Part shown: positions 47,506 to 55,317 of the stretch, piece by piece
Position numbering within the stretch: position 1 is the stretch's first letter
Layout of the letters: the number at the start of each line of letters is the position of its first letter
Assembly (NCBI GenBank): GCA_022340465.1
Contig: JAJDNW010000061.1
Location: 1-64,000, forward strand
Direction of reading: 5' to 3'
Origin: Deltaproteobacteria bacterium
GTDB taxonomy: Bacteria > Desulfobacterota > Desulfobacteria > Desulfobacterales > B30-G6
DNA length: 64,000 nt
Notes under the pieces: model-generated
The model's input: only the letters and a program-made list of their open reading frames with translations
Database searches by the model: none
What the model was told of the DNA's origin: nothing
Program-made: the position numbers and the translations under genes

Positions 47506-48405
47506 CTATCCAGATGGTAGCGGTCGGCAGCCCCTCCCTCCGTGGTCCTTCTCATGACCATTTTCCACCAGTGCCAGTGCTCCCCATCCCCGCTCGATGC
47601 CCTGCCAGCACATGTTGACCTCATAATTTTCGGAAATACGTTGCAGTAGACCGATTTCATTCGATTTTATCCCCGACAAAACCATACATCCACCCGGCGC
47701 CATAAGACCGATCATCTTTTCAAAATAGACTTTCAGGGTGGGCAGGCGCAGGTTGGCGACCACCAGCTGGAAGTGTTCCTTGATGGCATCAAGCGCCCGA
47801 TTGGAAATTTCGGCCTGCCCCAGGAGGTTGTTCAGGGCGACATTTTCCCGGGCTTCCACCCGCGCGCAGGGATCGATATCCAGGCCGATGCCTCTATCCA
47901 TGCCCATCTTCAAGGCGGCAATCATCAGAACCCCCGATCCGGTGCCGATGTCCAGAACGGCACCGCCTCGGTCGTTTTCGCATGCGGGCAGGCCGGCACA
48001 AACTGTTTCAAGGCCTTTCAGGCACAGCCGCGTGGTGGGATGAAAGCCATTGCCGAACGCCGCACCGGGCCTGATAGTGATCACGATGTCGCCGGGTAAG
48101 GGGCGATAGTCGTACACCGGTGGTTTAAGTATGAAGAATTTAGCGACACGCACGGGTTTGTCAAAGGAGGGCTCCAAAAAGGAGTTGCCGAACTGGTAGG
48201 TGTAGATGAGCGCTTTCTTCCCTATGAGACGCTTTATCGCCGATCCGAACTGCCCGCGTTTCAAGGGCAGCTCTTTTTGAACCCTTTTTCTCAATTCATG
48301 CGGGGTCAGGCGTTCCCAGGCATCCAGCACCATCCCGAGGATCAGCTCGTCAACCCGGGTGCCCATGTCATGCGGATCCGTCCCCTGAAATAGTGTGGAG
48401 TTCAT
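47506..48405 (-). CDS. PrmA-like methyltransferase with winged-helix-like N terminus
   Basis: The 299-residue protein has a PrmA-type catalytic half: PGAAFGNGFHPTTRLCLKG near 113-131, SAM motif I VLDIGTGSGVLMIAA near 150-164 and VVANLRLPTLKVYF near 220. Its N-terminal 90 residues are not the L11-binding domain of PrmA. They read like a winged helix (LTPHELRKRVQKELPLKRGQ, then SAIKRLIGKKALIYTYQFGN), recalling DsrD, encoded two genes upstream. It overlaps dsrN by 4 bases and ends at the shared terminator, so it is the last gene of the dsr operon. The target is unknown; an orthodox PrmA is at 30722. Confidence 0.85.
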   Translation of the reverse strand: MNSTLFQGTDPHDMGTRVDELILGMVLDAWERLTPHELRKRVQKELPLKRGQFGSAIKRLIGKKALIYTYQFGNSFLEPSFDKPVRVAKFFILKPPVYDYRPLPGDIVITIRPGAAFGNGFHPTTRLCLKGLETVCAGLPACENDRGGAVLDIGTGSGVLMIAALKMGMDRGIGLDIDPCARVEARENVALNNLLGQAEISNRALDAIKEHFQLVVANLRLPTLKVYFEKMIGLMAPGGCMVLSGIKSNEIGLLQRISENYEVNMCWQGIERGWGALALVENGHEKDHGGRGCRPLPSG

Positions 48406-49871
48406 GAACCCGTTATACCACCGGATCGCCCTTTAAACGCCCGCGCTTTGTCGACAAGTGCTCCTGCCCATTCCGGGGTGCCCAAGGCATGAATATGGGT
48501 GTAGGTCGCCAGCACGTTTTTATAAACGATGCCGTCTTGGCCGTCCCTTAAACCGACGCCACGCTGCATCTTAAAAGCGAAGCTGTCTCTGTCGCCAGTG
48601 AATGCGATCGCCTTGGAATAATGGAACTCATGTCCCTTGATCTGATTCCCAACCGGAAAAAACGGGTTTTCGGCGGCCACCGACACAATGGTATACCCAT
48701 GTCCCTGCGGCTTTAAATGGAAATCGAATTCAATGGGAAAAACATCTGCCATCGGGTAGGTTTTTCCCTTGAGAAGCAGTGATTTTCCCAGATACATCAG
48801 TCCGCCACACTCGGCGTAAATGGGCAGCCCTTCGTCAGCCAACGCCCTGATCTTTTCCCGATAGGTCCTGTTTTCAGTCAGTTCGCCCGCATGGGTCTCC
48901 GGAAAACCGCCACCGATGTAAAGCGCGTCGACATCCGGCGGTGTTGTCTCCTCCAGCGGGCTCGTAAAAACCAGCCGCGCACCGGCCCGTTTGAGGGCTT
49001 CCAGGTTTTCCGGATAATAAAACTGAAACGCCGAATCCCGCAGCACGCCGATCCGAGGTCCTTCGTCGACATCCGGCTGCGCTTTGATTTCAAAAGGGCC
49101 ACTGGTTGCATCCGAGCCCTCCCCGGCAGCTACAGAGACATCGACCGGACCCGATCCATCGATGGCTATTTTTTCAATGGCCTTAAGATCCAGATAGTCC
49201 GATGCAATCCCGGAAATTGTTTGGATGGATTCGACCGCCCAGCCATGCTCGGGTGTGGGGACCAGCCCCATGTGCCTTTCCGGGAAGGCCTGCTCTTTGA
49301 GTTTGGGAACGGCGCCTACGACAGGGATGTCGCAATAGTGCTCGATGCAGTCCCTGAGGTTGTTGCGGTGCCTCTTGCCGGCAACCCGGTTTAGGATGAC
49401 CCCGCCGATTTTCACCCGCGGATCGAAATGCATACATCCCAGTACCACGGCCGCCATGGTGCGCGTGGTTTTGGTACCGTCAATACACAGGATGACCGGC
49501 AGATCGAGCCACTTGGCCAGTTCGGCCGTACTCGTATTGCTGTTGCGGTCGATGGCATCATACAGACCGCGGTTGCCTTCGATAACGGAAAGGTTGGCCA
49601 TCCGGATAGAACGGCGGTATGAATCGATAAGAACGGGTTTTTCGATCAGGTAGGTGTCCAGATTGTAGCAGGGCCGGCCGGCCGCCAGGGACAGCCAGCC
49701 GGCATCGATATAGTCGGGACCCTTTTTAAAGGGGGCAATGGTTCTGCCGACTGCCCTCAAGGCGGCAATAATGCCGACAGAAAAAATGGTTTTCCCGGAA
49801 CCGCCGCGTAACGCCGCTACAACAATCCCCGGAGTACCTTTCTTCCCTTGCACTTTATGGATGGCATTCAA
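48402..49871 (-). CDS. dsrN: DsrN/CbiA-type sirohaem (cobyrinate) a,c-diamide synthase
   Basis: The 489-residue amidotransferase has an N-terminal P-loop-like domain (VVAALRGGSGKTIFSVGI near 17-34) and a C-terminal class I glutaminase domain (about 275-480) with the nucleophile Cys in YAECGGLMYLGKS and GHEFHYSKA near 430. CbiA amidates the a and c acetate groups of cobyrinate; in the dsr cluster the homologue DsrN is thought to make siroamide for sulfite reductase. The frame starts with TTG, and no better start with an SD is visible. It lies 47 bases after dsrD. Confidence 0.9.
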   Translation of the reverse strand: MNAIHKVQGKKGTPGIVVAALRGGSGKTIFSVGIIAALRAVGRTIAPFKKGPDYIDAGWLSLAAGRPCYNLDTYLIEKPVLIDSYRRSIRMANLSVIEGNRGLYDAIDRNSNTSTAELAKWLDLPVILCIDGTKTTRTMAAVVLGCMHFDPRVKIGGVILNRVAGKRHRNNLRDCIEHYCDIPVVGAVPKLKEQAFPERHMGLVPTPEHGWAVESIQTISGIASDYLDLKAIEKIAIDGSGPVDVSVAAGEGSDATSGPFEIKAQPDVDEGPRIGVLRDSAFQFYYPENLEALKRAGARLVFTSPLEETTPPDVDALYIGGGFPETHAGELTENRTYREKIRALADEGLPIYAECGGLMYLGKSLLLKGKTYPMADVFPIEFDFHLKPQGHGYTIVSVAAENPFFPVGNQIKGHEFHYSKAIAFTGDRDSFAFKMQRGVGLRDGQDGIVYKNVLATYTHIHALGTPEWAGALVDKARAFKGRSGGITGS

Positions 49872-49918: not shown

Positions 49919-50158
49919 TTAATCTTCGTGCTCGGCGCCTGCCTGTTTGCCGGTTCCGGGCAGCCCGTACATAGAGGTGCTGCCGCTGGACCAGTATTCC
50001 AGCACGCCTTCGGTCACCATCTGGTTGACCAGCTTTTTGGCCAGCCGCGGCTTCATGTCCAGAATCTTGGCCAGGTCGTTAAAGTAAAATTTGGATTTCA
50101 TCTTTTGCTTTTTTGTCAGACCTTCGACAATCTTTTCTTTTGCCTCTTCGTATTCCAT
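49919..50158 (-). CDS. dsrD: Dissimilatory sulfite reductase-associated protein DsrD
   Basis: From MEYEEAKEKIVEGLTKKQKM the protein has 79 residues, the usual DsrD size. It is a winged-helix fold of helices plus a wing (FNDLAKILDMKPRLAKKLV; VLEYWSSGSTSMYGLP). DsrD is found in reductive, not oxidative, Dsr systems and has been reported to stimulate DsrAB activity. A start at 50206 is possible but would run into the dsrB-dsrD gap; AGGGG lies before 50158. It is 60 bases after dsrB. Confidence 0.95.
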   Translation of the reverse strand: MEYEEAKEKIVEGLTKKQKMKSKFYFNDLAKILDMKPRLAKKLVNQMVTEGVLEYWSSGSTSMYGLPGTGKQAGAEHED

Positions 50159-50218
50159 GAATACACCCCTTTTTTTAAAAGGCGGGAGGCACAGCGTGCC
50201 TCCCACCGGTAGGTAGAA

Positions 50219-51364
50219 CTAGAACTTGAACTGCGAGGTCTGGCGCCAGGTGTAATAGGCCGGATCCCGGAAGTCATCAATCAGATGATGGGTGAATTCA
50301 AGCTCGCATTTTTCAAAGAAGCGCTCCCAGCCGATCCTCTCTGCCCAGTCACCCACGCGCTCATACTTGTTGGCCCCGGCAGCGTAGGCTTCGACAATCC
50401 GCTTGATGGTGTCGGTCATGGTCGGCCAGCGCGGCATTTCATTGGGGATGAACGCCACGACCACCTTGGAGAACTTGGGTGCGCTGATGCGGTTGGAGAC
50501 TTTACCACCCGCCATCAGGACGATGCCGTCGCCCTCCGTGTCAGCCAGCGGCATGGACGGGCACATGGTGTAGCAATTCCCACAGAACATGCAGCGTGAT
50601 TCGTTAACGGCCACACTGTTCACTTTTGTTCCGTTGATCTCCATCTTGGCCGGCTTGATGGCCGCGGTCGGACAGGCGGCGATGGCCAGCGGAATTTCGC
50701 ACATCTTGTCCAGGTATTCATGGTCCAGCATGGGTGGTTTGCGGTGATAGCCCAGGATGGCGATGTCGGAGCAGTGGACCGCGCCGCACATGTTCAGGCA
50801 GCAGGCCATGGAGATGCGGACCTGGGCCGGCATTCTCATCTTTCCGAAATCGTCGAACAGGGCATCCATGGTCGCTTTGACCGTGCCGGAGGCGTCCGTG
50901 GCCGGTGTGTGGCAGTGAATCCATCCCTGGGTGTGAACGATATTGGTGACGCCTGCACCGGTGCCGCCGATCGGGAATTTCTGGCTGCCGGCGTCGAACT
51001 TGCGGCTTTCCAGATCCTTGATCAGGGGGTCCACCTTGTCCTTGGAATCGACCATGAACTCGATGTTGTTACGGGTGGTGAAACGCAGGTGTCCGTCACA
51101 GTGTTTGTCCGCAATCTCACAAATTTCACGGATATGGGTCACGGTCATCAAACGGCAGCCGCCGACACGGACCGTATAGACCTCGTCGCCGCTTTCCGCC
51201 ACATGGACCAGCACGCCCGGCTTCAAAATTTCATGATACAGCCATTTACCCTTATTCTTTGCTATGACCGGAGGGTAAAATTCATCATATTTTCGAGGCC
51301 CGATGTCCGTAATGCGGTTTTCCATCGGTTTGTCTGGATTGTAACCTGAAGATATAAATGCCAT
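50219..51364 (-). CDS. dsrB: Dissimilatory sulfite reductase beta subunit
   Basis: From [20 protein letters not shown] the protein has 381 residues, the standard DsrB length. It shows the sulfite reductase repeats, the sirohaem/[4Fe-4S] region [23 protein letters not shown] near 205-227 and an inserted ferredoxin domain (CRMFCGN-type: [11 protein letters not shown] near 265-275; [10 protein letters not shown]). GGAGGGG precedes the ATG at 51364, 13 bases after dsrA; longer frames overlap dsrA. With DsrA it reduces sulfite bound to DsrC in the cytoplasm. Confidence 0.98.
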
Positions 51365-51377
51365 GGTGATTCCCCTC

Positions 51378-52694
51378 CTATCTCTGATGGTGTTTTCTGA
51401 ATTCGTTAATGTCGCGCTCCCAACCGCCTTCAACCTCATCTTCTTTCCAGAAAATGTACGGGTTGGTACGCGGTTCCTGCACCATTCGCGGATCCGCATC
51501 GAACCCGGTGACTTCGAGCAGTTTCTGGAAGCCCTGGCGTTTCATCAGCTCGCCGAGGCGCTCGCGGTTCTTACCTTCTTCCATCCACCAATCCCAGATG
51601 GGTTCGATGACATTTTCCTTGATCTCGTCGAAGTCATCTTCAACCTTGATAAACGGCACGATGAGGGAACCCATTTGGGCACCGTCGAGGATCGGGGCCT
51701 TGGCGCCGGCAAAAATGGAACATCCGCGATCATTACCGATGCGCAAGGCTCGCGGCATGACATTGATGCAGTGCATGCAGCGAGTGCACTCCCTGTTGTC
51801 GATTTTAAGGGTCTTGCCGTCCATCCACATACAGTTGGTGGGGCACAGGTCGATGACCTCCTTATGGATGTCGAAAGCACCCCAGTCGCGGTCCGCATGG
51901 GCGCCGCCATTGGGGGGAATCTCTCCGCCCACGTAGGCTTGGACAGCTTCCTGATCGATACGGATATCATCCCGCCAGGTGCCGATAAAGGACAAATCCG
52001 CCCGAGCGATGGAGGCCACACAGCAGTTGGGGCAGCCGTCGAATTTGAACTTGAATTTATAGGGGAATGCCGGACGATGCAGTTCGTCCTGATAGTAATT
52101 GGTCAGTTCATGGCAAATGGCCTGGGTGTCATAACAGGCATACTCACAGCGTGCTGCACCGACACAGTCGGAGGGAGTCCGCAGGTTGGACCCGGAGCCG
52201 CCCAGATCTTGATTCAGGTTATGGGTCAGTTCGAAAAAGACTTCTTCCAACTGGGGGGTGGTGGTACCCAGAAAAATGATATCGCCGGTGGAGCCGTGCA
52301 TGTTGGTAACACCGCTGCCCCGCCGTTCCCACAGGTCGACAATGTCACGCAGGTACTTGGTCGTGTAAAATTTACCGGCCGGCTGGCTGACCCGCATGGT
52401 GTGAAAGTGGGCCACCCCCGGAAAGGTTTGCGGCTGGTCACAGTAACGGCCGATAACACCGCCGCCATACCCGAAAACCCCCACGATGCCGCCGTGTTTC
52501 CAGTGGGTTCGACCATGTTTGTAGGAAAGCTCAAGCACTCCGAGGAGATCATCTACGCAATCCTCTGGAACCTGGTACTCGACGTTGTTTTCATTCTTAG
52601 CCCTTGATGCTGCTTCTTGCTTGAGGTCGGAAACAAAACTCGGCCAAGGCCCGCTCTCAAGCTGGTCCAACAAAGGGGTTTCATGCTTTGCCAT
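51378..52694 (-). CDS. dsrA: Dissimilatory sulfite reductase alpha subunit
   Basis: The 438-residue subunit, standard DsrA length, has the sirohaem-[4Fe-4S] ligands in [11 protein letters not shown] near 177-187 and [13 protein letters not shown] near 220, and a ferredoxin domain with [10 protein letters not shown] and [12 protein letters not shown] near 290-310. With DsrB it carries out the six-electron reduction of sulfite, the terminal step of sulfate respiration. AATGGAGGTAAAGAG precedes the ATG, giving a strong SD. It leads the unit dsrA-dsrB-dsrD-dsrN-methyltransferase and is preceded by a consensus promoter-like sequence and a leader of about 150 bases with odd features. Confidence 0.98.
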
Positions 52695-53005
52695 CTCTTT
52701 ACCTCCATTTTCATTAAAATTAGCCTAACAAAACTAAAAATGTCCGATTTACCCCTAAGGGTATGATAACGTCACCTCCTTCCAAATCACCTATTTGCTT
52801 TTTAAATATTCGCATACACGATTGAAGTCGATTTTATAACCAAGTGGGAGATATAGAATTATTATTTAGCATTGTCAATAAAAATCCCCGGTTTCATACG
52901 GTCGGAAAACGGTTAATTCCGGGAAGGGGGCAAGATCTCTACATGCGGAGATACAACCGGGCAGCCATACACCATATAGTGCTGTGCCGCCGATTTGAAA
53001 GTAAG
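52695..53005 (-). promoter_or_regulatory. dsrA upstream and leader region
   Basis: This gene-free stretch of 311 bases holds a strong promoter-like pair (52850-52878) and a leader with a 10-base perfect Shine-Dalgarno complement at 52772-52781 that has no usual start codon near it. It also holds a 14-base element TACCC-CTAA-GGGTA (52750-52763). I see no terminator between the kinase-like gene and this promoter. Confidence 0.6.
52850..52878 (-). promoter_or_regulatory. dsrA: Candidate dsrA promoter
   Basis: TTGACA (52878-52873) and TATATC (52855-52850) on the minus strand are exactly 17 bases apart. Transcription would begin near 52843, giving a 5' leader of about 150 bases. Confidence 0.65.
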
Positions 53006-54133
53006 CTAGTCGACTGTCCGGACGGCGTTGAAAAAGGCCTCGGCATGCCTTTCGGCATGGGAGGCGACGAGCGGCGTGTCCGGTGAATCCGGCGGTTGTC
53101 GGGCGGCCATGGAAGCAAACAGATCCAGCATATCACCGGCAGTCATTTTGGCCAGGTAGGATCTAAAATAGCCGGCGAATTTTTCAGGAATGCGCCTGTT
53201 CAAGTGCTGCAACGCAAGCCCCTTGTAAAAGCCTTCCAATGTGGCAGGTACAACGAAGTCGTCAATCCAGCACAGCTCCCCGACCCCGTCCAAGCGGTCA
53301 ATGCGCATATGCATCGACATGTTGAAAAGGAACAGCAGAAGAGCGTCTAACATTGCCTCGCTGTCATCGTTCGCCGCGACAACCAGGGGCGCGTATCGGC
53401 GTACTGTCACCAGCTTTACCAGCGGTTCGCGGTTTGCGCTCAGGTTGACCACGAAGTCACCAGCCGCGTGGTGCCACGCAAAAACCTGTTCAAAAGTTTC
53501 AACGTCGTAGCAGGCGGTCAGAATCATGGCCGCCTGCCTAAAAGCCGATCGCGCCTCATCTATAGACAGAAAACAATGGTCATTGGCTGGATCCCAGAGT
53601 CGGATACCGCTTGAACCGGTCTGCTTTATTTTCGAAACATGAAATTCATGGTGGGATTCGAACCATTCGCCTAAAAACAGACTTACCGATCTTGATTCAC
53701 TGATCGCCGTCTCCCGACAGGCAAACACCCTGGGTAAAAAGGGGTAGGCATATTTTTTTTCCAGCATTTGCAGAATTCTGAATTCGTTTCTCAGATACGC
53801 TTTTCCAATCGTGGAAGCCGCAACATTGAGGACATACTGGGCCTTACGATTTTCATTTGGCTCGACGATTCGACTGGGGTGATAAAAGGCACCGTGCTTT
53901 TCAAGATGCACCTCCAGCTGCTCTGTTGAGGCAATCCGCGCAGAAACTGTCTTGTCCACGTTGTCGACTAAAAAGGACTCGACCACCTCGAAATACTCCC
54001 CATAGGTCAGGCTGTCCGGGGCGGGCTGTCTAGCGGATGACGGCCCGCTGTGGCGTGTCATGGGAAGGTGTGTGTTCCAAAGGGGATGGCCAGGTCTAAT
54101 GGCATGGTCTTGGTCGGAAAGGTAGAACTGCAT
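53006..54133 (-). CDS. Kinase-fold-like hypothetical protein upstream of dsrA
   Basis: I do not recognise a named family for this 375-residue protein. Its order is kinase-like: a strand AQYVLNVAAS (98-107) where the ATP-binding Lys would be Asn103, a following helix LRNEFRILQML with Glu117 in the alphaC position, a hinge-like stretch SLFLGEWFESHHEFHVS (151-167), and a segment FAWHHAAGDFVV (218-229) like a degenerate catalytic loop. No clear DFG follows. This suggests an APH or protein-kinase-like fold, perhaps without catalysis. AGGA lies 5 bases before the ATG, 13 bases after the TPR gene. No signal peptide is seen. Confidence 0.75.
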   Translation of the reverse strand: MQFYLSDQDHAIRPGHPLWNTHLPMTRHSGPSSARQPAPDSLTYGEYFEVVESFLVDNVDKTVSARIASTEQLEVHLEKHGAFYHPSRIVEPNENRKAQYVLNVAASTIGKAYLRNEFRILQMLEKKYAYPFLPRVFACRETAISESRSVSLFLGEWFESHHEFHVSKIKQTGSSGIRLWDPANDHCFLSIDEARSAFRQAAMILTACYDVETFEQVFAWHHAAGDFVVNLSANREPLVKLVTVRRYAPLVVAANDDSEAMLDALLLFLFNMSMHMRIDRLDGVGELCWIDDFVVPATLEGFYKGLALQHLNRRIPEKFAGYFRSYLAKMTAGDMLDLFASMAARQPPDSPDTPLVASHAERHAEAFFNAVRTVD

Positions 54134-54146
54134 GTCGTCCTGACAT

Positions 54147-54767
54147 TCAACGGTGTTCCTCGAGTTCCTTTAAAATTTCGGGAGCAATCTCGTAGCCCAT
54201 CGACGCGGCCTTGTCAGCATTTTCAATGGCCAACTCAAATTCACCCTTTTCCATGTAGGCGATGGCCAGATTGTTATAGGCCACCTGAAAGGATGGCTCC
54301 AGCTCAATCACCTTCAGGTTGGTTGCGATGCTCTCGTCGATCTGCCCCTTCATCAGATAGGCATTGGCCAGGGTGGCATAGGCCTGCAGGAAATTAGGGT
54401 TCCAGCGCACGGCTTTCTCCAGCGAAGGGATAGCGTCATCGACTTTCCCCATTTGCATGTACACAAATCCGATGTTTCCATGACCTTCGGCAAATCCTGC
54501 CCTGGAATGGACAGCACGTTTGTTCCAGTCCAGACACCCCTCCAGATCGCCCCGCCGAAGGTGGATTGCACCGAGCTGAACGTAGGCCTCGGCCAAGGTG
54601 GGACTGCATGAGATGGCCTCCTGGAATTCCCCTTCAGCCTCTTCGTATTGCTTTAATCCCATCAAGGCTATGCCCAAATTATAATGTGAGGTTCCGCATT
54701 CCGGATTGGAAGCGATGGCCTGTCTTTGGGTGGCGATATATTCCTGTGCATTTTGAAATTTTGTCAT
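54147..54767 (-). CDS. Tetratricopeptide-repeat protein upstream of the dsr operon
   Basis: The 206-residue cytoplasmic protein consists of about five TPR units (for example NPECGTSHYNLGIALMGLKQYEEAE near 18-42; PTLAEAYVQLGAIHLRRGDLEG; NPNFLQAYATLANAYLMKGQIDES; PSFQVAYNNLAIAYMEKGEFELA). TPR arrays bind partner proteins. There is no signal peptide. It is the first gene of a short unit with the kinase-like gene, 13 bases downstream, and has its own consensus promoter. Conservation next to dsrAB would suggest a role in sulfite reductase assembly or regulation, but that is inference. Confidence 0.9.
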   Translation of the reverse strand: MTKFQNAQEYIATQRQAIASNPECGTSHYNLGIALMGLKQYEEAEGEFQEAISCSPTLAEAYVQLGAIHLRRGDLEGCLDWNKRAVHSRAGFAEGHGNIGFVYMQMGKVDDAIPSLEKAVRWNPNFLQAYATLANAYLMKGQIDESIATNLKVIELEPSFQVAYNNLAIAYMEKGEFELAIENADKAASMGYEIAPEILKELEEHR

Positions 54768-54822
54768 AATGTTGTCCGTCTGTTTTTAAATATTTTCGAT
54801 ATACGCAAGTGAGCCAGCACAA

Positions 54823-54851
54823 AATCTAGAGCGCAGCCAACCGATTGTCAA
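54823..54851 (-). promoter_or_regulatory. Candidate promoter of the TPR/kinase-like unit
   Basis: TTGACA (54851-54846) and TAGATT (54828-54823) on the minus strand are 17 bases apart, about 55 bases before the TPR start. Confidence 0.6.
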
Positions 54852-54893
54852 GTAAAAACACCTGTGGCCGCAGGCGCCTGCCCGAGAAGCTTC

Positions 54894-54922
54894 TTGACAT
54901 GAATTTAATTTCTATCTATAAA
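54894..54922 (+). promoter_or_regulatory. Candidate promoter of the 110-residue protein and dapA-like gene
   Basis: TTGACA (54894-54899) and TATAAA (54917-54922) are 17 bases apart, about 60 bases before the 54985 start. Together with the divergent TPR promoter it fills this 217-base gap. Confidence 0.7.
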
Positions 54923-54984
54923 ATCCGGGATATTCTGCAAACTGTTACTGGTGACTTGAATCGTTATCAAAAGGAGGACATGTT

Positions 54985-55317
54985 ATGGCCGATTGTTTTG
55001 TAAACATCATCTTAGACGACGACAAGATCAAGCAACTCGAAGGGGTCGGATTGGGAAATGAAGTCAAAGATATAGATGGTAAAAAGGTGCTTCAGATTAC
55101 CATGACCAAAAAAGATCAGAAAAAATTGAAAAAAGGGTTTAAAGATCTGACCATCGCCGATGACGACACCTGCTCGCTGCCGGAAGACGGGGAAAAGACC
55201 CTTTTTGACATCGTTCTGGAAATGCAATCCGTTGATGTAATGAAATTTGCTATTACCAAACTTTATAACCCCCTCGCCGGTAGGGATGTGTTCGGTCGCG
55301 GCACCGGCATGCGCTAA
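54985..55317 (+). CDS. Conserved-looking small protein of unknown function
   Basis: The 110-residue protein starts MADCFVNIILDDDKIKQLEG after a strong SD (AAAGGAGGACATGTT). It is charged and mixed alpha/beta, with no signal peptide or membrane segment and one Cys in DDDTCSLPEDGEK near 60-72. The end, YNPLAGRDVFGRGTGMR, is Gly/Arg rich. I do not recognise a family. It has a near-consensus promoter, so it may be well expressed. The dapA-like gene begins 13 bases after its stop, so the two should be cotranscribed. Confidence 0.82.
   Translation: MADCFVNIILDDDKIKQLEGVGLGNEVKDIDGKKVLQITMTKKDQKKLKKGFKDLTIADDDTCSLPEDGEKTLFDIVLEMQSVDVMKFAITKLYNPLAGRDVFGRGTGMR

Follow-up and report, generated by a model that had tools for sequence, protein, structure and literature searches.

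A kinase-fold protein with a conserved non-canonical cleft, encoded with a TPR protein next to dsrAB

Dissimilatory sulfite reduction worldwide depends on DsrAB. To our knowledge, little has been learned about how this enzyme is assembled and tuned beyond the contributions of DsrC and DsrD. The window analyzed here, a 64,000-nucleotide stretch of contig JAJDNW010000061.1 from a member of the Desulfobacterales, carries a gene immediately before dsrA that had been predicted from its letters to encode a kinase-like protein without catalytic residues. This locus therefore raises the question of whether the protein truly has a kinase fold, what has become of its active site, and whether its position beside the dsr genes has any significance.

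The locus and the gene family

The genes relevant to this question are listed below, with the kinase-fold protein gene and its product hereafter called PK.

54985-55317, divergent from the TPR-PK unit: DUF6955 protein gene
54147..54767, minus strand: TPR protein gene, 206 aa (TPR_1, E 3.5e-32), ending 13 nt before the PK start
53006..54133, minus strand: PK, 375 aa, an open reading frame with 138 distinct homologous loci and a kinase fold in an AlphaFold2 model
51378..52694, minus strand: dsrA (TIGR02064, 617.5 bits), 311 bp downstream of PK
50219..51364, minus strand: dsrB, with its start probably at 51364 rather than 51499, as judged from a 381-aa homologue in a related locus (L002)
49919..50206, minus strand: presumably dsrD, named from the known dsrABD order; its position agrees with this name, as do homologues in related dsr clusters that are 73-86% identical
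48402..49871, minus strand: cobB/dsrN-type gene, named from gene order and sequence

The minus strand thus reads TPR gene, PK, dsrA, dsrB, dsrD, and cobB/dsrN-type gene, which agrees with the original prediction that PK lies directly upstream of dsrA in the same direction and is coupled to a TPR gene; that prediction named no strand. The DUF6955 gene is kept divergent from the TPR-PK unit in several related loci (L002, L093, L101, and L103) and is sometimes found elsewhere within the dsr region (L156).

There is one PK copy in the source assembly (4.39 Mb, 162 contigs). Homologues are present in 49 of 58 related genomes, mostly at 32-54% identity, and on this basis we consider PK to be a real gene. 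Another 80 loci were added, and the residue counts given below refer to the 138 distinct homologous loci (137 at some columns).

Sequence searches did not place this family. PK has no match in Pfam or NCBIfam and no relevant match among the PADLOC HMMs, and its sequence and profile comparisons with the PDB returned chance matches only. The Pfam APH model (PF01636) is matched neither by PK nor by 70 homologues. When PK was aligned by hhalign with 14 APH-type proteins from related genomes, the probability was 2% and only the alpha-C/beta-4 stretch aligned; local and global modes gave nothing usable. PK does not match the SelO HMM at E 10, nor does SelO appear in the list of families for 71 members at E 1, and no relative was found on viral contigs. 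A PADLOC hit to SAVED (E 0.011) was dismissed as chance, and hints of dihydroneopterin aldolase and Ras-like proteins in a few homologues are weak and not shared by the family.

Fold and cleft residues

Profile-profile comparison, one of the checks proposed for this protein, reached no kinase family, and structure prediction gave a kinase fold. An AlphaFold2 model computed from an alignment of 71 homologues has a pLDDT of 91.9 and a pTM of 0.92. As assigned by DSSP, its elements follow the order of a kinase, beginning with beta-1 (74-77), a KHGAFY loop, beta-2 (85-91), beta-3 (98-105), and alpha-C (108-128). These elements are followed by beta-4 (136-143), beta-5 (149-156), a hinge, alpha-E (191-207), a catalytic loop (218-226), beta-7 (227-231), beta-8 (237-241), and then a helical C-lobe. 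The best PDB matches of the model found with Foldseek are protein kinases (E 4e-5). The VIA-align ranking puts small-molecule kinases first, including 5-methylthioribose (MTR) kinase (2pun_B; Z 13.7, 259 residues, rmsd 4.8) and NahK (4ocv; Z 13.2, 250 residues, rmsd 4.2), and also AmiN and APH(2''). A model was also made of the homologue from Desulfotomaculum copahuensis, which is 28% identical to PK. This second model has a pLDDT of 92.1 and matches NahK with a Z of 14.0 over 254 residues (rmsd 4.4). Among the matches listed, the top PDB structures for both models all have the kinase fold, and the matches in a viral fold library are mainly kinases of large viruses.

As modeled, PK has a bilobal protein-kinase fold that is closest to the APH/sugar-kinase branch. 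Because sequence profiles reach no kinase family, it is the fold alone that establishes this kinship. Members of the APH/choline kinase/MTR kinase/NahK branch (PF01636 and its kin), which provide the best structural matches (Z 13-14), share with PK the bilobal architecture, the alpha-C Glu, and a similar size. Unlike them, PK gives no Pfam HMM or profile-profile match, and its catalytic Lys, HxD Asp, and DxD/DFG Asp have been replaced.

Since hhalign against APH-type proteins yielded no usable alignment, the residue equivalences in PK were placed by the DSSP strand boundaries of the AlphaFold2 model, as follows.

53879..53899, minus strand: K79-H80-G81-A82-F83-Y84-H85, the glycine-loop place plus the first beta-2 residue, between strands 74-77 and 85-91
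53825..53827, minus strand: N103, the VAIK-Lys position in beta-3
53783..53785, minus strand: E117, the equivalent of the alpha-C glutamate, in helix 108-128
53453..53476, minus strand: W220-H-H-A-A-G-D226-F227, the equivalent of the catalytic loop, in which D226 directly precedes beta-7
53399..53407, minus strand: T243-V-R245, the equivalent of DFG, after beta-8

The kinase-like order that had been read from the sequence is borne out by both models and the PDB structure searches. The segment SLFLGEWFE, described as hinge-like, is beta-5 plus the hinge; WHHAAGDFVV covers the catalytic loop and beta-7; and the Glu of NEF is E117 in alpha-C.

At the glycine-loop place, the canonical GxGxxG is replaced by KHGAFY with a single conserved Gly (G81, 137/137). 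The residues around it are nearly fixed, with K79 in 136 of 137 loci (one has Arg), H80 in 133/137, Y84 in 136/137, and H85 in 134/137. Asn103 had been proposed to sit where the ATP Lys is expected, and its place in beta-3 agrees with this. Among the 138 loci, this position holds Asn (115), Ser (11), Thr (8), or a single Ile, Leu, Ala, or Val, and never the Lys that some homologues might have carried. The alpha-C glutamate is kept, with Glu in 123 loci and Asp in the other 15. The Asp of HRD/HxD is missing, and H221, located five residues before D226, is found there (132 His, 3 Ser, 2 Arg, 1 Gln). H222 is present in 131/138 loci, and W220, G225, and D226 are present in all 138. The place of the Mg-binding Asn is thus occupied by the invariant D226, which could serve as a metal ligand. 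Consistent with the earlier statement that no DFG follows, the DFG/DxD Asp is replaced by T243 (129 Thr, 4 Ser, 3 Ala, 2 Met), and R245 two positions on is invariant (138/138).

Further positions are fixed throughout the family: W157, E163, H165, and W180 in 138 homologues and A105, D279, G283, and G301 in 137. Conservation of at least 97% is found for K79, H80, G81, Y84, H85, W157, E163, H165, W220, D226, R245, D279, and others. The near-invariant set as a whole, made up of polar and aromatic residues, comprises K79, H80, G81, Y84, and H85; N103; E117; W157, E163, and H165; W180; W220, H221, and D226; R245; and R277 and D279. Overall identity within the family is about 30-35%. Most of the positions that are conserved map to the glycine loop, hinge, catalytic loop, and DFG place, and the rest of the protein diverges.

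The canonical catalytic residues have therefore been lost family-wide, and the alignment indicates that the substitute set is kept as strictly as an active or binding site would be. Such strictness at the kinase elements speaks against both simple decay and a scaffold with no use for a cleft. The description of PK as lacking catalytic residues thus holds for the canonical ones and fails for the cleft as a whole, which has another, almost invariant set, so that a dead scaffold is not the sole reading. Among the PK copies encoded away from dsr, the most divergent (L143) carries K79R, H80T, H85Q, H221S, and H222N and looks as if it has been released from the usual constraint.

Kinase folds with altered active sites can acquire other chemistries, and one source (PMC10870513) lists the AMPylase SelO, the glutamylase SidJ, and NiRAN among the repurposed PKL-fold pseudokinases. 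PK resembles these proteins in combining a kinase fold and non-canonical residues with a conserved cleft, but it has a different residue set, no Pfam SelO match, and a TPR partner from the dsr cluster. SelO, UbiB, and WNK were weighed on their known features and on the missing Pfam matches. In WNK kinases, the Lys has migrated from beta-3 to the glycine-loop region, where it would be comparable to K79, but these kinases keep the HRD and DFG Asp residues and PK has neither.

The WNK precedent is relevant to the proposal that PK is an active non-canonical transferase, in which K79 would be a migrated Lys paired with E117, and H221, D226, and R245 would perform the chemistry on a small molecule or a Dsr protein. 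We regard this as unlikely, though it deserves to be weighed. The near-fixed K79 (136/137), the acidic residue at position 117 in all 138 loci, and the invariant D226 and R245 represent conservation typical of catalysis, and the closest folds are small-molecule kinases. However, both catalytic Asp equivalents are gone (H221 and T243), making canonical two-metal phosphotransfer unlikely. Furthermore, H221 itself varies (Ser, Arg, or Gln in 6/138), and the GxGxxG loop is missing. The best reading of the protein is an undescribed PKL family with pseudokinase character, for which new chemistry is a possibility.

The original prediction had also known of no description of a pseudokinase with a TPR protein beside dsr, and our literature search likewise found no text that joins a kinase-fold protein or pseudokinase with dsr, although Mussmann et al. 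2005 (dsr-fosmid) could mention the ORF. Term searches of three dsr papers (PMC10504309, PMC10591310, and PMC13293266) returned no TPR or kinase neighbor, and the same kind of search in a paper on a PKL family database and in a review on families of bacterial pseudokinases returned no sulfur genes.

Linkage to dsr genes and the TPR partner

Gene order was surveyed by tblastn of the genes in the window across 110 loci. Most of these have the TPR gene and PK followed by dsrA, with PK and dsrA on the same strand in 76 loci and on opposite strands in 9. Other arrangements include PK convergent with dsrA-dsrB-dsrD-TPR (e.g., L021, L028, L044, L050, L055, and L078), PK directly after cobB in the order dsrABD-cobB-PK (L141 and L142), and PK divergent from dsrA with cobB following PK (L151). 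The linkage is thus seen in at least four gene orders, and the PK tree (83 rows) requires seven changes of arrangement. In several lineages, PK is distant from dsr (L143, L145-L149, and L158).

Co-occurrence was assessed in 296 genomes of the phylum Desulfobacterota by using a PK profile and counting dsrA where TIGR02064 scored in full. PK was found in 48 of these genomes and dsrA in 146. All but one of the PK genomes (47/48) carry dsrA (Fisher p 1.2e-15, with related genomes not being independent), and the genome that does not (G141) belongs to a genus in which a relative has both genes. In 35 genomes the two lie on one contig, and in 32 of these they are within 10 kb of each other. The expected co-occurrence with dsrAB therefore holds in one direction, in that dsrA is present in nearly every PK genome, whereas PK is present in only about a third of the genomes with dsrA. 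Its absence from 99 of the 146 (about two thirds) indicates that PK is not essential to the pathway and that DsrAB can be produced and can function in its absence. One Bacillota genome with PK was found, that of Desulfotomaculum copahuensis (L055), and its copy is located beside TPR-dsrDBA. Within the order of this species, 49 of 60 genomes have dsrA and a single one has PK, leaving 48 of the 49 dsrA genomes without it, which suggests a possible lateral gain.

These distributions bear on whether PK is simply a neighbor carried along with the dsr cluster, with a function unrelated to sulfite reduction. Some copies are indeed far from dsr, and the phylum average largely reflects related genomes. 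However, dsrA accompanies PK almost without exception, the sole Bacillota copy found is also beside dsr, and the neighborhood has been kept over different gene orders. The linkage to dsr is genuine and has persisted through rearrangement, and we therefore judge this explanation to be very improbable.

DsrD offers a precedent for dsr-linked modulators, being described as a small accessory protein of the dsr cluster of reducers (2022 work cited in PMC10591310). PK has a different fold, and its presence in about a third of dsrA genomes differs from that of DsrD, which is typical of reducers generally.

The TPR protein paired with PK matches generic TPR models. Its ortholog adjoins PK in nearly all loci, and the two frames overlap or lie within 30 nt of each other in 43 of 89 loci, touching or overlapping (gap of 0 or less) in 25. 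The pair also stays together in genomes whose dsrA lies at a distance of 31-229 kb or on a different contig (G235, G092, G048, and G125). In the phylum sample, the TPR ortholog is present in 92 of 296 genomes, 87 of them with dsrA. It accompanies PK in 42 of the 47 genomes with both dsrA and PK and near dsrA without PK in 25 sampled genomes. When compared with the PK counts, these numbers identify the TPR protein as the wider dsr companion, with PK present in a subset of genomes. For a protein of its class, the dsr-linked TPR protein shows high conservation (mean column identity of 57%), and its Cys24 is nearly invariant within an N-terminal 'NPECG' motif.

The gap between PK and dsrA, which ranges from 142 to 442 bp across loci (median 291), holds a further feature that was identified by alignment of nine intergenic regions.

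52878-52850, minus strand: predicted dsrA promoter, TTGACA-17-TATATC

Among the nine aligned regions, TTTTATTGACA and TTCTATAT are conserved. Given this conserved promoter, dsrAB probably has its own transcription start, and TPR-PK is probably transcribed as a unit apart from the adjacent dsrAB.

The 5' leader of dsrA (52694-52880, minus strand) is conserved, with counterparts ahead of dsrA in about 40 related loci. It includes a second perfect Shine-Dalgarno-like element, GGAAGGAGGTGAC (52783-52771), which is usually GAGAGGAGGTGAC and is positioned about 73-97 nt before the dsrA start. A small hairpin, TACCCCTAAGGGTA (52750-52763), often comes next, and the true SD lies beyond it. No ORF was noticed within the leader, and Rfam gave no match over 52500-55100. 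We take the leader to resemble STAB-SD mRNA stabilizers. Leaders of the Desulfobacula/Desulfotignum type (e.g., L024, L031, and L045) lack the extra SD-like element and share a different hairpin, TGAATGAAAAGTTTGGAAAACTTTTCATT, ahead of TTAACTATTAACGGAGGTAAGTAA.

The promoter is also relevant to the idea that PK is a regulatory pseudokinase, a scaffold that would sense a ligand or protein together with the TPR protein and would control dsr expression or report energy state but would not help to build DsrAB. Its TPR partner, the family-wide loss of canonical residues, and an occurrence in only some sulfate reducers, as fits an optional regulator, all speak for this idea. PK has no DNA-binding or output domain, though, and a scaffold would not need a near-invariant cleft. 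Moreover, dsrA has its own sigma-70-like promoter with no regulator site shown. This reading, too, seems to us improbable but worth retaining.

A proposed accessory role for DsrAB

We favor the view, to which we give an even chance of being right, that PK represents an undescribed PKL family with a rewired cleft and that, jointly with the TPR protein, it assists reductive DsrAB as an accessory factor. In this proposal, the TPR protein would hold a client, either DsrAB or an assembly intermediate, and the Lys/His/Arg set of the PK cleft would engage one particular small ligand, probably an anion. The pair would then serve DsrAB or its supply by means of assembly, cofactor handling, or activity control. 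We infer this ligand, this client, and this role from the fold, the cleft, and the gene neighborhood described above. Because several loci place PK against cobB/dsrN, our favored hypothesis for the ligand is a sirohaem/siroamide-type cofactor or a nucleotide signal; the cofactor would be an attractive guess, prompted by gene neighborhood. Less probably, the kinase fold of PK may have been turned to the enzymatic handling of a cofactor or ligand; such an enzyme would work with its own TPR partner and be required for DsrAB to function fully. It might, for example, load sirohaem/siroamide or carry out new group-transfer chemistry, and it would be specific to some of the sulfate reducers.

The motif set KHGxFYH, WHHAAGD, and R-x-D-R-x-D-G provides simple targets for mutation. 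Through its unusual residues, PK would join the few pseudokinases that may perform new chemistry, and its near-invariant non-canonical set suggests an overlooked helper of DsrAB in many sulfate reducers. A conserved kinase-fold/TPR pair beside dsrAB would thus add a missing component of DsrAB biology.
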